37,394 nucleotides of DNA from Syntrophorhabdaceae bacterium (GTDB lineage Bacteria; Desulfobacterota; Syntrophorhabdia; Syntrophorhabdales; Syntrophorhabdaceae). The notes beneath the pieces were generated by a model. The model did no database searches and was not told the origin of the DNA. It saw only the letters and a list, made by a program, of their open reading frames with translations. Below, in pieces: positions 21,300 through 31,502 of the stretch; the stretch's first letter is position 1; every line of letters starts with the position of its first letter. A program made the translations under genes and the position numbers. The stretch spans positions 1 to 37,394 of the forward strand of contig DATKMQ010000119.1 in assembly GCA_035541755.1 (NCBI GenBank), read 5' to 3'.

Positions 21300-21389
21300 G
21301 GAGGGATGGCTGAGCGGCCGAAAGCGGCGGTCTTGAAAACCGTTGGGCGTGCAAGCGCCCCGTGGGTTCGAATCCTACTCCCTCCGCCA
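21300..21389 (+). tRNA. tRNA-Ser (anticodon UGA)
   Basis: The 7-bp acceptor stem GGAGGGA (21300-21306) pairs with TCCCTCC (21379-21385), followed by discriminator G and an encoded CCA (21387-21389). The anticodon stem CGGT/ACCG encloses loop CTTGAAA with TGA at 21334-21336. The long variable arm (GGGCG...CGCCC) is the class II form expected for tRNA-Ser, and the T loop GGTTCGAATCC is intact. It reads UCA and related serine codons. An integrase remnant begins 2 nt after the CCA, which marks the 3' end as a past integration site. Confidence 0.97.
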
Positions 21390-26092: not shown

Positions 26093-27604
26093 TTACGCAT
26101 TACGGTCAGAATTCTTACAGGCGGCTTTCTCTTCGTTCTGCCCGCTATCCAACACCTCTCTTACCTTCCGCAGGAGGGTAAGAGGTGAGATGGGCTTCTG
26201 AAGGAAGTTGAACTCTTCGTCTTGAATGCCTTTGTCGAGAAGAACGTCTCTGGTATATCCGCTTGTAAAGATCACCTTGATGCCGGGCTTGATCGCACGT
26301 ATTTCATTATAGGCTTCCCGTCCGTTCTTTTTCGGCATGACCGAGTCGAGGATCAGGAGGTCAATTGTATGGGCTGTCCTGAACTGGTCTACCGCATCCT
26401 GTCCGTCCACCGCTTCAATTGTCGTATACCCATGTTGTGTGAGTATTGTGCTTGCAAACTCTCTGACCGTTTCGCTGTCCTCTCCGATCAGAATAGTTTC
26501 CTTGCCTCCTTGAATAGGCCCCGGTCCGGACGTCTCTTTTTTTGAGTTTTTTTTGACGGTAGGGAGGTAGATATGAAAGGTCGTTCCCATCTGTGGTTCA
26601 CTGTATACCGTAATATAGCCTTTGTGCTGCTTGACGATTCCATAGACGGTAGAGAGCCCGAGACCGGTTCCTTTTCCCACTTCCTTGGTGGTAAAGAAGG
26701 GGTCAAAAATCCTTTTCTGCAGACTTTCATCCATGCCCGTGCCGGTATCGGAGACCGAGAGGAGGGCGTACGGTCCAGGTTTCACGTATGTGTGGAGTCG
26801 CTGGAACTCATCGTCCAGTTCCACCATTTCCGTCCTTATGGTAAGCGTACCGCCCTGCGGCATGGCGTCCCTGGCGTTGGTAGTAAGATTGAAGAGAATC
26901 TGGTCCATCTGGGTTGCATCGGCCATGACGATAATGTCGTCAGGAGCAAGGTATGTCTCGATAACCATGTCCTCGGTAAGGAGGCGGCTAAGGAGCTTCT
27001 CCGTCCTCCTGATGATCTCGTGGAGACTGACGGGCTCAAGTCTGATTCTTTGTTGTCTGCTGAAGGCAAGGAGGTTGCGTACAAGGTCGGCCGCCTTCTG
27101 CGAAGCAGCGAGGATCTGATCCACATAATTCCGTGACGTACCGCGCTTAACTTTCATTTGCAGGAGGGTGGCGTATCCGACGAGGGCTGTGAGGATGTTG
27201 TTGAAGTCGTGGGCGATACCTCCGGCTAAGGTACCGATGGCTTCCATTTTTTGGGCCTGATAGAGTTGAGCTTCAAGGCGCGTCCTTTCGTGCTCGGCCT
27301 GTTTCAGGTCGGTTATGTCGACCAGTGACGCCACACTTCTGTCAGTACCCGGGATCATGTCCACAACAAAACACATATCCCGCACTTCTCCGGTTCGTGT
27401 AACAAACTGGAATCCGTATTGCCTTGGGACCGCGTCAGGGTTCTTGCGACGTAGATGATGGGAAGAGAGCATCCTTCCTAGGTCTTCCTTGGTTACGAAT
27501 TCGGTCCAGCTCTTTTTGCCTTCAATTTCATCCTTGGTGTAGCCGGAAAGGCGTTGAAACTCGCTATTACAAAGACTGATTGTCGTGCTATTTTCGATAA
27601 TCAT
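26093..27604 (-). CDS. PAS-histidine kinase-receiver: C-terminal half of a split hybrid kinase
   Basis: This 503-residue reading frame starts in the middle of a PAS domain. Its frame is open a further 41 codons upstream to an in-frame TGA at 27730-27728, immediately before which the upstream PAS gene ends. The missing PAS start (SEKLYRTLFENTGTAT) is encoded in those 41 codons, so this is the rear of a larger gene. Domains are PAS (~1-105); HisKA with His132 in GGIAHDFNN; ATPase with NLTTNARDAM, DTGTGM and GTGLGLS; and receiver with GEDSE, the Asp of LILDSVMPKK and LQKPIS. If translated alone it would lack its sensors and have no obvious ribosome-binding site. It may be a pseudogene portion or depend on read-through. 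Confidence 0.85.
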   Translation of the reverse strand: MIIENSTTISLCNSEFQRLSGYTKDEIEGKKSWTEFVTKEDLGRMLSSHHLRRKNPDAVPRQYGFQFVTRTGEVRDMCFVVDMIPGTDRSVASLVDITDLKQAEHERTRLEAQLYQAQKMEAIGTLAGGIAHDFNNILTALVGYATLLQMKVKRGTSRNYVDQILAASQKAADLVRNLLAFSRQQRIRLEPVSLHEIIRRTEKLLSRLLTEDMVIETYLAPDDIIVMADATQMDQILFNLTTNARDAMPQGGTLTIRTEMVELDDEFQRLHTYVKPGPYALLSVSDTGTGMDESLQKRIFDPFFTTKEVGKGTGLGLSTVYGIVKQHKGYITVYSEPQMGTTFHIYLPTVKKNSKKETSGPGPIQGGKETILIGEDSETVREFASTILTQHGYTTIEAVDGQDAVDQFRTAHTIDLLILDSVMPKKNGREAYNEIRAIKPGIKVIFTSGYTRDVLLDKGIQDEEFNFLQKPISPLTLLRKVREVLDSGQNEEKAACKNSDRNA

Positions 27605-27727
27605 CGTTGCCGTACCTGTGTTTTCAAAGAGCGTGCGGTAGAGTTTTTCGGAATCAGCTAGTCTTCTTTCTGCCAGTTTCCGGTCGGTAATATCCTGATT
27701 TACCCCGTACCGCTTAATGACGCGGTC

Positions 27728-27730
27728 TCA
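27728..27730 (-). other. In-frame TGA splitting the hybrid kinase
   Basis: This TGA ends the upstream PAS reading frame, and the same frame continues open on its far side into the kinase. The exactly aligned codon in the neighbouring paralogue (30029-30027) is TCA (Ser), so one C-to-G change could have made the stop. Confidence 0.85.
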
Positions 27731-28858
27731 ATCGTCTTTGACGACGCGCGCCCGTACCACGATGTGGCGTACTTTACCATCGCGCCGAATAATGCGATGC
27801 TCTATATCGGGAGGGGATTCAGCCTCATGTCGAGTAAGGTTATACTGCACGTCATGAGACTGAGACAGGCGATCGTCAGGATGTACAAATCGTTCTCTGT
27901 ATTCTTCGCGCGACATCCGGTATCCGCCTTCTCGTGCGGCGGTCGTGCCGTAAAAAGCATAGAAGGGATCGTTGAATATCAATGCATTCTCGGCGGGGTC
28001 AAACTCCCAGTACACGATATCGGCGAGATCCACAGCCTGAGATAATTGAAGTTCGTTCCTGCGCAGGGCTTCTTCCATCCGTTTGCGTTCCGTGATATCA
28101 CGCGCTATGCCCATGATCGCCGTTGGATCGCCGTTATCATTGCGCAGAAAGGATGCCTTAGTCTCCGCCCATACGGTTGACCCGTCTTTGCACAACATTT
28201 CCAGCTCCAGAACTGTTGTGCGGTCAGGGTCGACCGTTTCATCCTTTATTAAATCCAGACTCTCCCGGATCGCCCTTGTTACCAATTCGAGACTTTCAGC
28301 CGTCATGGAATGGCTGATTGGCTGATCAATCAGTTCTTCCGGGGAAAACCCCCTTGCCTGTTTGACCGAGGGACTGACGTACTTGTATGTCAAGTCCAAG
28401 TTTAGAACATAGATCACGTCCGTAGCATTCTCTGCAAGCAGACGGTATCTATGCTCGCTTTCTTTCAACGCCTCCTCGGCGCATCTATGTCCCGTGATGT
28501 CGCATACCACGCCAATGACGTATTGCTGACCCGTGGCATCTGTGTAATGTGTTTTTGTTGTTTCGATTGTCCGCACTTCACCGTTTGCATCTGTTACTTG
28601 TTCTTCGCTGATGTCTTGTTCCCCGGTCTCGAACACAACCCCGGCGTGTGCTCTGAAAATGTCGGCTTCCTCTTTGGGGAATAGTTCGTGCGGGGTCTTG
28701 CCCAGCCACCGCTCCAACGCTATTCCAGACTGTTTGCAAAGCGCTTTGTTGACAAAGACGTATCTGTATTCAAGGTCCAGAATGAAGACCGGGTCCCCTA
28801 TGCAATCGAGAACCGATTTGCTGTATTCAGAGGACTCGGTGATATTTTTTATGTGCAT
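27728..28858 (-). CDS. Three-PAS sensor protein: N-terminal half of a split hybrid kinase
   Basis: This 376-residue protein has no membrane segment. It has PAS domains at about 10-130 (FILDLEYRYVFVNKALC), 133-258 (RYRLLAENATDVIYVL) and 263-376 (AVDLADIVYWEFDP), and ends abruptly at VVKDD inside the third PAS. The paralogue at 29505 continues at this point with RLIRRYGVNQDIT, and the same sequence type (RVIKRYGVNQDIT) is encoded right after the TGA here. The ancestral protein was therefore about 921 residues: PAS-PAS-PAS-PAS-HisKA-ATPase-receiver. AAAGGAGG lies 14 nt before the ATG. As it stands the product is a sensor without output. Confidence 0.85.
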   Translation of the reverse strand: MHIKNITESSEYSKSVLDCIGDPVFILDLEYRYVFVNKALCKQSGIALERWLGKTPHELFPKEEADIFRAHAGVVFETGEQDISEEQVTDANGEVRTIETTKTHYTDATGQQYVIGVVCDITGHRCAEEALKESEHRYRLLAENATDVIYVLNLDLTYKYVSPSVKQARGFSPEELIDQPISHSMTAESLELVTRAIRESLDLIKDETVDPDRTTVLELEMLCKDGSTVWAETKASFLRNDNGDPTAIMGIARDITERKRMEEALRRNELQLSQAVDLADIVYWEFDPAENALIFNDPFYAFYGTTAAREGGYRMSREEYRERFVHPDDRLSQSHDVQYNLTRHEAESPPDIEHRIIRRDGKVRHIVVRARVVKDD

Positions 28859-28991
28859 ATATTATGTTTAGCGGCCTCCTTTGATCTGCATGCCAAAATC
28901 AGCGGGATGCGTGGCCAAGCCGAAGGTAGGTTGAGGATTTCGAATTTAAGGGCTAATGAATAGACGCCACAGTCTGTTACAACCTGAAGCC

Positions 28992-29360
28992 TTATCTCTG
29001 GTCGGTGCTTTTTAATAGCCATTTAATTGCCAATTTTTCGTCCGAGAAAACCCTGAGCTGCGCCCCCCGGTTTGTCGCCACGGTTTCTGCGAATCTGTTC
29101 AAAACATCAGGACTCGAGAGTACGGCAACCTTGAGAGGCGGCCGGATTACTTCTGACAGATATTTGCCTATAGTATATCGAACCATCTCGTTTTTGGGCT
29201 TTGACCACCGTGTTAAATCGAGTAGAATACGGTTGTGCCCTTTATTCCGGGCCTCAAGAAGCATGCCTTCGGTTACTATCTGCGCGTTTTTTACTGTAAA
29301 AGAGGAGGAAGCATCCCTGACAACAAGGTAACCCGTCCGATCCAAATACTCTATGTTCAT
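28992..29360 (-). CDS. SpoIIAA/STAS-like small protein
   Basis: This protein has about 122 residues from the ATG at 29360 (MNIEYLDRTG), which has GAGGG at proper spacing; the longer frame to 29396 is less likely. It shows an alternating strand-helix pattern with a central RILLDLTRWSKPKN, then LKVAVLSSPDVLNRF and the C-terminal FSDEKLAIKWL. This suits the SpoIIAA-like (STAS/SEC14-type) small-domain family, in which members bind partners or lipids. It sits between the two paralogous PAS genes, in the same direction. A role linked to those sensors is possible but unproven. Confidence 0.6.
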   Translation of the reverse strand: MNIEYLDRTGYLVVRDASSSFTVKNAQIVTEGMLLEARNKGHNRILLDLTRWSKPKNEMVRYTIGKYLSEVIRPPLKVAVLSSPDVLNRFAETVATNRGAQLRVFSDEKLAIKWLLKSTDQR

Positions 29361-29504
29361 CGCTGGCCCTCGTTTCTGATAGATCGATAATTCCATAAGG
29401 GCATAGTATTATTTAGGTATATGGCCAGGGTCAAGCGAAATCAAGCCCAGGCAACCTATAATTTCCTTGCGATTATCCTATAGGTACTTTACGGGAGCGT
29501 ATTG

Positions 29505-31157
29505 CTAAAGGGAGAGTAAGTGTGCCTGAAGATTGACGGTTTTATGTTTTAGGCCCAGTTTCTTTCTGATGTTGTTCCGGTGGACCTCGACGGTGCCCTC
29601 AGAGATATTCAGCAGTTCTGCTATCTGCTTGCTGCCCTTGCCGGCCCTGATCAGGTTGGCTATCTGGATCTCGGTCTTCGTGAAGTGGGAATAGGCAGCG
29701 CCCAGCTTATGCAGGAAAGGAGAGATTATCTCGTTCAGACCGGACTCGACGATGCCTACGTACGTTTTCTGGACATCGCTCATCTGCGTATTCTTCAGCC
29801 TCTCGATGTAGGGCACGATGAGCTCTCGCACATTGGTGTGGATGGCATTTTCGAGCGTTGATTTGTCTTCGTCCCGGTGTTTCAGCAATACTTTCAGAGC
29901 GCTGTTCACTTCCTGGAGATCAAAAGACTTTTTTTCCAGTTCGTGCTCTCTGCTCCTAAGCTCTTCTTCGACTTCCTTGCGCTTTGTGATGTCCTGATTC
30001 ACCCCGTACCTCCTGATTAAGCGGCCTGAGGCGTCCATGACGTTTGTTGCCAGAACCACAGTATGTCGTACTTTGCCGTCGCGCCGAACAACGCGGTGCT
30101 CTATAGGGGGAAGGGGTCCGGTGATGTTTTCTGCAAGAATCCGTTGCACTGTTTCAAGGACACCTGGTTGATCGTCAGGATGAACAAATCGCTTTCTGTA
30201 TTCTTCGCCCGTCATCCGGTATCCGCCTTCACGCTCGGCGGTGGTGCCATAAAAGGCATAAAAGGCATCGTTGAAAATCTGCACGTTCTCGACAGGGTCA
30301 TACTCCCAGTACACGATATCGGCAAGATCCATGGCCTGAGATAATTGAAGTTCGCTCCTGCGCAGGACTTCTTCCATCCGTTTGCGTTCCGTAATATCAC
30401 GCGCTATGCCCATGATCTCTATTGGATCGCCGTTATCGCTGTGCAGAAACGATGCCTTTACCTCGACCCACATGGTCGAGCCGTCTTTGCGTATCATTTC
30501 CAGCTCCAGGACTTTGCCCCGGTCGGGGTCAACCGTTTCGCCTTCTTCTCGTTCCAGATCTTCCCGGATAGCACTTACCACGAATTCGAGACTTTCAGCC
30601 GTCATATTATGGCTGATTGGCTGATCAATCAACTCTTCTGGGGAAAACCCCCATGCCTGTTTGACCGAGGGACTGACGTACTTGTATGTTAAGTCCAAGG
30701 TAAGAACAGAGATCACGTCCGTAGCATTCTCGGCAAGCAGACGGTATCTATGCTCGCTTTCTTTTAACGCCTCTTCAGCGGCCTTATTTTCCGTGATTTC
30801 GCGCAGCACGCCGATGAGGTATTGTTCGCCTGTGGCATCCTTATAAACCGTTTTCGTTGTTTCGATTGTATGGACATTACCGTATGCGTCGGTTGCCTGT
30901 TCTTCTTTAACACTTTGCTTCCCGGTCTCGAAGACTTGCCTGGCATCCTCCATGAAAATATCGGCCTGCTCCTTGGGAAATAATTCTTGCGCGGTCCTTC
31001 CCAGCCACCGCTCTAAGGGAATCCCAGACTTTTCGCAAAGCGCTTTGTTGACGAAGACATTCCTGTATTGACGGTCCAGAATGAAGACCGGGTCTCCAAC
31101 ACAATCGAGAACCGGTTTGCTGTATTCCAAGGCCTTCGGGAGATTATCGCTCCACAT
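29505..31157 (-). CDS. Three-PAS LuxR-type transcriptional regulator
   Basis: This protein has 550 residues from the ATG at 31157 (MWSDNLPKAL), preceded by AAAGGAGG at 13 nt, the same layout as its paralogue; the frame further upstream to 31220 is leader. PAS domains lie at ~10-130, ~133-258 and ~263-385. A coiled coil (RSREHELEKKSFDLQEVNSA) and a helical segment common in soluble PAS-LuxR proteins (NVRELIVPYIERLK) follow. The C-terminal GerE/LuxR helix-turn-helix is FTKTEIQIANLIRAGKGSKQ, then NISEGTVEVHRNNIRKKLGL. It should bind DNA as a dimer in response to a cytoplasmic signal sensed by the PAS domains. It lacks a receiver. It shares its sensor module with the split kinase next door, implying the same or related signals. 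Confidence 0.9.
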   Translation of the reverse strand: MWSDNLPKALEYSKPVLDCVGDPVFILDRQYRNVFVNKALCEKSGIPLERWLGRTAQELFPKEQADIFMEDARQVFETGKQSVKEEQATDAYGNVHTIETTKTVYKDATGEQYLIGVLREITENKAAEEALKESEHRYRLLAENATDVISVLTLDLTYKYVSPSVKQAWGFSPEELIDQPISHNMTAESLEFVVSAIREDLEREEGETVDPDRGKVLELEMIRKDGSTMWVEVKASFLHSDNGDPIEIMGIARDITERKRMEEVLRRSELQLSQAMDLADIVYWEYDPVENVQIFNDAFYAFYGTTAEREGGYRMTGEEYRKRFVHPDDQPGVLETVQRILAENITGPLPPIEHRVVRRDGKVRHTVVLATNVMDASGRLIRRYGVNQDITKRKEVEEELRSREHELEKKSFDLQEVNSALKVLLKHRDEDKSTLENAIHTNVRELIVPYIERLKNTQMSDVQKTYVGIVESGLNEIISPFLHKLGAAYSHFTKTEIQIANLIRAGKGSKQIAELLNISEGTVEVHRNNIRKKLGLKHKTVNLQAHLLSL

Positions 31158-31216: not shown

Positions 31217-31502
31217 GCAAGCTAACCCTGGACCCGATTTCTCGGGTTGTTGCGTATCATAGCCAAGACCATCGCAACATTATAATACTACCATAACTAT
31301 TCAGACGAACGTGTAGCGACCAGGCGAAGTCTGCCGAAGCAATACCAGGAAGAAGCTGGGCCTGAAACATAAAACCGTTAATCTTCAGGCATACTTACCC
31401 TCACTTTGGCAGCTTGCCCATTAAAATATATATAGGCTAATCGAAAGGAAATTATAGGGTATTTGGTCTTAATTTCCTCTCACCCATCCCGATGAATTGT
31501 GC
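31158..31502. other. Divergent intergenic region between the PAS-LuxR gene and the che operon
   Basis: These 345 bases contain the PAS-LuxR leader, a LuxR-gene scrap (31323-31424) and AT-rich sequence around 31424-31460, which probably holds the che operon promoter. TATAAT-like hexamers occur near 31281 and 31433, but none has a good -35 partner, so I call no promoter. Confidence 0.4.
31323..31424 (+). pseudogene. Inverted scrap of a LuxR-family gene 3' end
   Basis: On the + strand the codons from 31323 read GEVCRSNTRKKLGLKHKTV, then NLQAYLPSL, ending at TAA 31422-31424. This matches the last ~28 residues of the PAS-LuxR protein on the opposite strand (VEVHRNNIRKKLGLKHKTV, then NLQAHLLSL), and the DNA is clearly similar over about 80 bases. 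An in-frame TAG at 31314 closes it upstream. It is the dead tail of a third family member in inverted orientation. Confidence 0.75.

Follow-up and report, generated by a model that had tools for sequence, protein, structure and literature searches.

A single in-frame TGA interrupts a PAS-rich hybrid histidine kinase gene of a Syntrophorhabdaceae bacterium, probably by recent nonsense mutation

When one in-frame stop codon divides a gene for a sensor kinase, does the cell still make a working kinase, two separate proteins, or only a fragment? This question is raised by a locus in the 37,394-nucleotide stretch of a Syntrophorhabdaceae contig that we analyzed as a whole (the window). An earlier note had taken the open frames 28858-27728 and 27604-26093 to be the same frame, and translation of the window bears this out: from 28858 to 26093 on the reverse strand runs one reading frame of 921 sense codons and a final TAA, with a single internal TGA at codon 377 (27730-27728), ~40% into the gene, and then 41 open codons before the next ATG. 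Apart from this TGA, the window copy has no second stop and no frameshift. Under the standard code, sensor and kinase therefore do not lie in one translatable frame, since the TGA at codon 377 separates them. The features of the interrupted gene are as follows.

26093..28858, reverse strand: interrupted gene for a PAS-PAS-PAS-PAS-HisKA-HATPase_c-REC hybrid histidine kinase (from the frame and the intact full-length paralogue C40)
27731..28858, reverse strand: upstream open half of 376 codons, with PAS 1, PAS 2 and all but the end of PAS 3 (translation, Pfam)
27695..28051, reverse strand: PAS 3, approximate limits, with the stop near its end (Pfam; in C40 the PAS_3 match covers residues 317-386, to the last profile position)
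27728..27730, reverse strand: in-frame TGA, codon 377 (translation, paralogue alignment)
27725..27727, reverse strand: codon 378, Asp for Gly, a second change in a Ser-Gly turn (paralogue alignment)
27602..27604, reverse strand: codon 419, the next in-frame ATG past the stop, in PAS 4, with a weak upstream site (paralogue alignment, ribosome-binding-site duplex)
27305..27646, reverse strand: PAS 4, approximate limits (PAS_8 match, codons 406-451)
27050..27235, reverse strand: HisKA, with the H-box GGIAHDFNN intact (translation, Pfam)
26558..26920, reverse strand: HATPase_c, with the N, G1, F and G2 motifs intact (translation, Pfam)
26162..26494, reverse strand: receiver domain, with the Asp of LLILDSVMP and the Lys of FLQKP present (translation, Pfam)

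Domain limits were set by running Pfam on both halves of the gene and on C40, which places PAS 1 at codons ~16-123, PAS 2 at ~145-257, PAS 3 at ~270-388 and PAS 4 at ~405-518, followed by HisKA (542-603), HATPase_c (647-767) and the receiver (789-899). In the downstream half, HisKA (42.2 bits, cut-off 26.9), HATPase_c (82.2, cut-off 26.4) and Response_reg (67.1, cut-off 30.2) all exceed their cut-offs and stand in the order of a hybrid histidine kinase, and the catalytic motifs are intact, as had been claimed. The earlier note was mistaken about the 41 open codons, which it had assigned to the completion of the fourth PAS domain: the stop sits near the end of the third, and these codons encode the final ~12 residues of PAS 3, then a linker and ~13 residues from the start of PAS 4, so that the ATG at 27604 falls within PAS 4. 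No transmembrane or Cache domain was matched in the gene. In domain order and intact catalytic motifs it resembles PAS-rich hybrid histidine kinases with a CckA-like core; its closest solved catalytic relative is 5idj (deposited as Histidine kinase; E 2e-54), and the CckA entry 5idm also matched. It differs from these kinases in being cut by a TGA in PAS 3, and we do not claim CckA identity itself.

Evidence on how the stop arose comes from paralogues in the source genome (G000). An intact full-length paralogue with a 921-codon frame lies at G000:C40:40558-43299 and matches the window gene at 77% protein identity (residues 2-915) and 79% DNA identity. Further paralogues that cover the stop position are found on contigs C28, C129 and C51, and one more lies next door in the window:

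29505..31157, reverse strand: next-door paralogue of the sensor half, a PAS x3-LuxR regulator (Pfam, alignment)

This neighbor, by its Pfam matches a three-PAS LuxR-type regulator and not a kinase, shares 80% DNA identity with the window gene over 29986-31135 and 71% protein identity, and it aligns without gaps across codons 1-397, with TCA at the stop codon position, just as the earlier note had observed. The codon aligned to the TGA is likewise TCA in C40 and C28, and is TCG in C129 and C51, so that all five near paralogues have Ser at codon 377; all five also have Gly at codon 378, where the window copy has Asp. Two adjacent codons are thus altered in the conserved Ser-Gly turn of the window copy. 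Of the 61 aligned stretches across this position, a count that includes overlapping loci, none but the window copy carries a stop at it. Because homology continues without gaps across the stop, the two same-frame halves are not a chance juxtaposition. A frameshift as the cause of the split was rejected, as there is no indel, and an alternative genetic code was rejected because other genes in the window end in TGA. Relative to its intact homologues the gene thus carries a disabling lesion, and five near paralogues, among them the intact full-length C40, lend good support to the proposal that a hybrid kinase gene was hit by a point nonsense mutation.

An orthologue of the locus was found in none of one same-genus genome, 39 family genomes and 60 mixed relatives; outside the source genome, no match among the relatives searched exceeded ~50% protein identity across most of the gene, and a contig scan gave two distant loci only. 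The literature that we searched yielded nothing relevant.

If the stop is real, how old might it be? Between the window gene and C40, dN/dS is 0.17 before the stop and 0.146 after it. Changes unique to each copy after the stop number 22 non-synonymous and 64 synonymous in the window gene versus 35 and 72 in C40 (Fisher p 0.34). At columns where all other copies agree, the window gene has 23 lone changes after the stop and the intact copies have 20, 21, 26 and 22; radical changes among these number 3 in the window gene versus 2, 4, 2 and 1. Neither these comparisons nor the catalytic motifs show the relaxed selection or further decay after the stop expected of a pseudogene, which leaves three possibilities: the mutation is very recent, one half still works, or the stop is an assembly error or strain variant. 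It also follows that the stop itself is the only evidence for decay, and that the loss, if real, is young. Taking ~0.028 as the nonsense fraction and assuming an indel share of 10%, one expects three disabling changes in the gene by the time neutral divergence reaches ~1%, so any inactivation must be young; and since the paralogues stand at a dS of ~0.9 from each other, the duplication is much older than the stop. If the gene is a pseudogene, the absence of further decay is compatible only with a very recent event, and in this respect the claim of a recent mutation holds up.

Taken together, these data best support the reading that a redundant, duplicated hybrid kinase has very recently acquired a nonsense mutation, and we consider this probable. 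In the proposed course of events, a single nonsense mutation would have struck close to the end of PAS 3 in one of the soluble PAS-rich hybrid histidine kinases, a family that has expanded in this lineage, and the adjoining codon would have undergone a second substitution. Translation from 28858 should then terminate at 27728, yielding a three-PAS fragment of 376 residues from which the final strand of PAS 3 and every catalytic domain would be missing, while the kinase half should not be produced in useful amounts. From this we infer loss of function, recency and redundancy, and the gene may be regarded as a very young pseudogene, or a null allele, of a redundant signaling protein. It shares with point-nonsense pseudogenes in expanded families the single stop, the intact paralogues, the flanking remnants and the presence of another nonsense member in the genome, but differs from them in showing no visible further decay or relaxed selection. 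It would represent early-stage gene loss, caught before other damage has built up, in a genome whose HATPase_c domains or sensor-kinase-type genes number about 60 (64 HATPase_c domains counted). As the earlier note said, the presence of a working kinase at this locus depends on the outcome, but the stakes are modest, because a close full-length paralogue and those other HATPase_c domains remain in the cell. A gene caller would report two genes for the former one, and the resulting 'sensor-only' protein and 'kinase' should not be taken for a natural pair.

The main rival is that the stop is not fixed at all: it may be an error of assembly or base calling, or the draft consensus may have taken up a variant from a minor strain. 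The assembly is indeed a draft (3.85 Mb in 180 contigs, completeness 95.8, contamination 1.9) and the rest of the gene looks normally constrained, but the frame is otherwise clean and the two separate substitutions within four bases are unlike the usual homopolymer-type error, so that we regard this explanation as unlikely. A second nonsense member of the family bears on the same point. At G000:C56:4130 an in-frame TAA lies inside the HATPase_c domain (LGLSTV*GIIKQH) of an otherwise normal hybrid kinase, the only one of the 64 HATPase_c domains in the genome with an in-frame stop. This suggests that occasional nonsense decay is real in this expanded family and this genome, though the C56 and window stops would look the same if the draft carried occasional wrong bases. 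The other rivals would have the stop tolerated. If the gene now encoded two functional proteins, with a sensor fragment of three PAS domains and a kinase translated separately through re-initiation or internal initiation, one would expect both halves to be open and constrained, as they are, and shorter PAS-kinase-receiver genes are intact in the family (for example, open frames of 618-665 codons). The start signals speak against this. The ATG at 27604, the first in-frame ATG, GTG or TTG after the stop, lies inside PAS 4 with a weak upstream duplex (-3.8 kcal/mol); the bases before it are nearly the same as in the paralogues that read through, and the aligned codon is ATG in C129, ATA in C40 and C28 and GTA in C51, as expected of a codon within a coding sequence. 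On these grounds we rejected the idea that a new start signal exists at 27604. Some in-frame ATGs further in have better upstream sites, such as that at 27376 (-6.6 kcal/mol), but a start there would remove most of PAS 4; the end of PAS 3 would be lost in any case, and no homologue examined stops at this position. With no new ribosome-binding site at 27604, the suggestion that the halves act as separate proteins gained no positive support, and we judge it improbable. Still more speculative, and in our estimate very improbable, is that the TGA acts as a standing genetic switch that yields a stable three-PAS sensor-only protein together with low levels of a re-initiated kinase half, as two interacting proteins.

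Decoding of the TGA as selenocysteine, or some other read-through, would restore a full-length kinase. The genome encodes SelB (377.6 bits) and tRNA-Sec (76.3 bits), both above cut-off, so that UGA recoding is possible in this organism, and the 51 bases that follow the TGA fold somewhat more stably than shuffled sequences (z -1.8). In having an in-frame TGA in such a genome, the window gene is like UGA-recoded selenoprotein genes; unlike them, it has neither a Cys-containing homologue position nor a SECIS. No Cys or Sec occurs at the position aligned to codon 377 among the aligned homologues, the near paralogues having serine. Neither Rfam, which gave no RNA family match at threshold at the stop, nor the folds revealed a SECIS-like element just after the TGA. 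In the bacterial SECIS consensus, the loop lies at a greater distance from the TGA and has a leading G, whereas here the first hairpin begins two bases after the TGA, which puts its loop too close, and the second hairpin has a loop without the leading G. Moreover, the intact paralogue C51 folds equally strongly at the same place, and TGA serves as a normal stop codon for other genes in the window. Read-through, which had also been proposed, is thus left with no positive support and is extremely unlikely. None of the readings needs a new mechanism, and the finding is an ordinary one. A tRNA-Ser gene with anticodon TGA lies at 21300-21389; it was rejected as a UGA suppressor, as this anticodon reads UCA codons.

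Apart from the stop, the surroundings of the interrupted gene record both duplication and rearrangement:

28859..28940, reverse strand: leader with AAAGGAGG, common to the next-door gene and, less closely, C40
25830..26099, reverse strand: integrase-core (rve_3) transposase remnant that abuts the 3′ end of the broken gene (Pfam)

Since the leader and AAAGGAGG are common to the window gene and the LuxR gene, the sensor module was duplicated together with its translation start. The start of the LuxR gene is probably the ATG at 31157 rather than the annotated TTG at 31220. Between this gene (29505-31157) and the window kinase, a sensor module has been exchanged between a transcription factor and a kinase. 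Upstream of the LuxR gene, 31323-31406 on the forward strand encodes a 28-residue LuxR-tail remnant that is 79% identical to residues 544-571 of the next-door protein. The locus has been rearranged, with the transposase and LuxR-tail remnants flanking the broken gene and the LuxR gene. Finally, the two sensor paralogues are separated by a gene at 28992-29396 for a 134-residue protein that is weakly SpoIIAA/STAS-like (20.4 bits, below cut-off) and has a weak ribosome-binding site.
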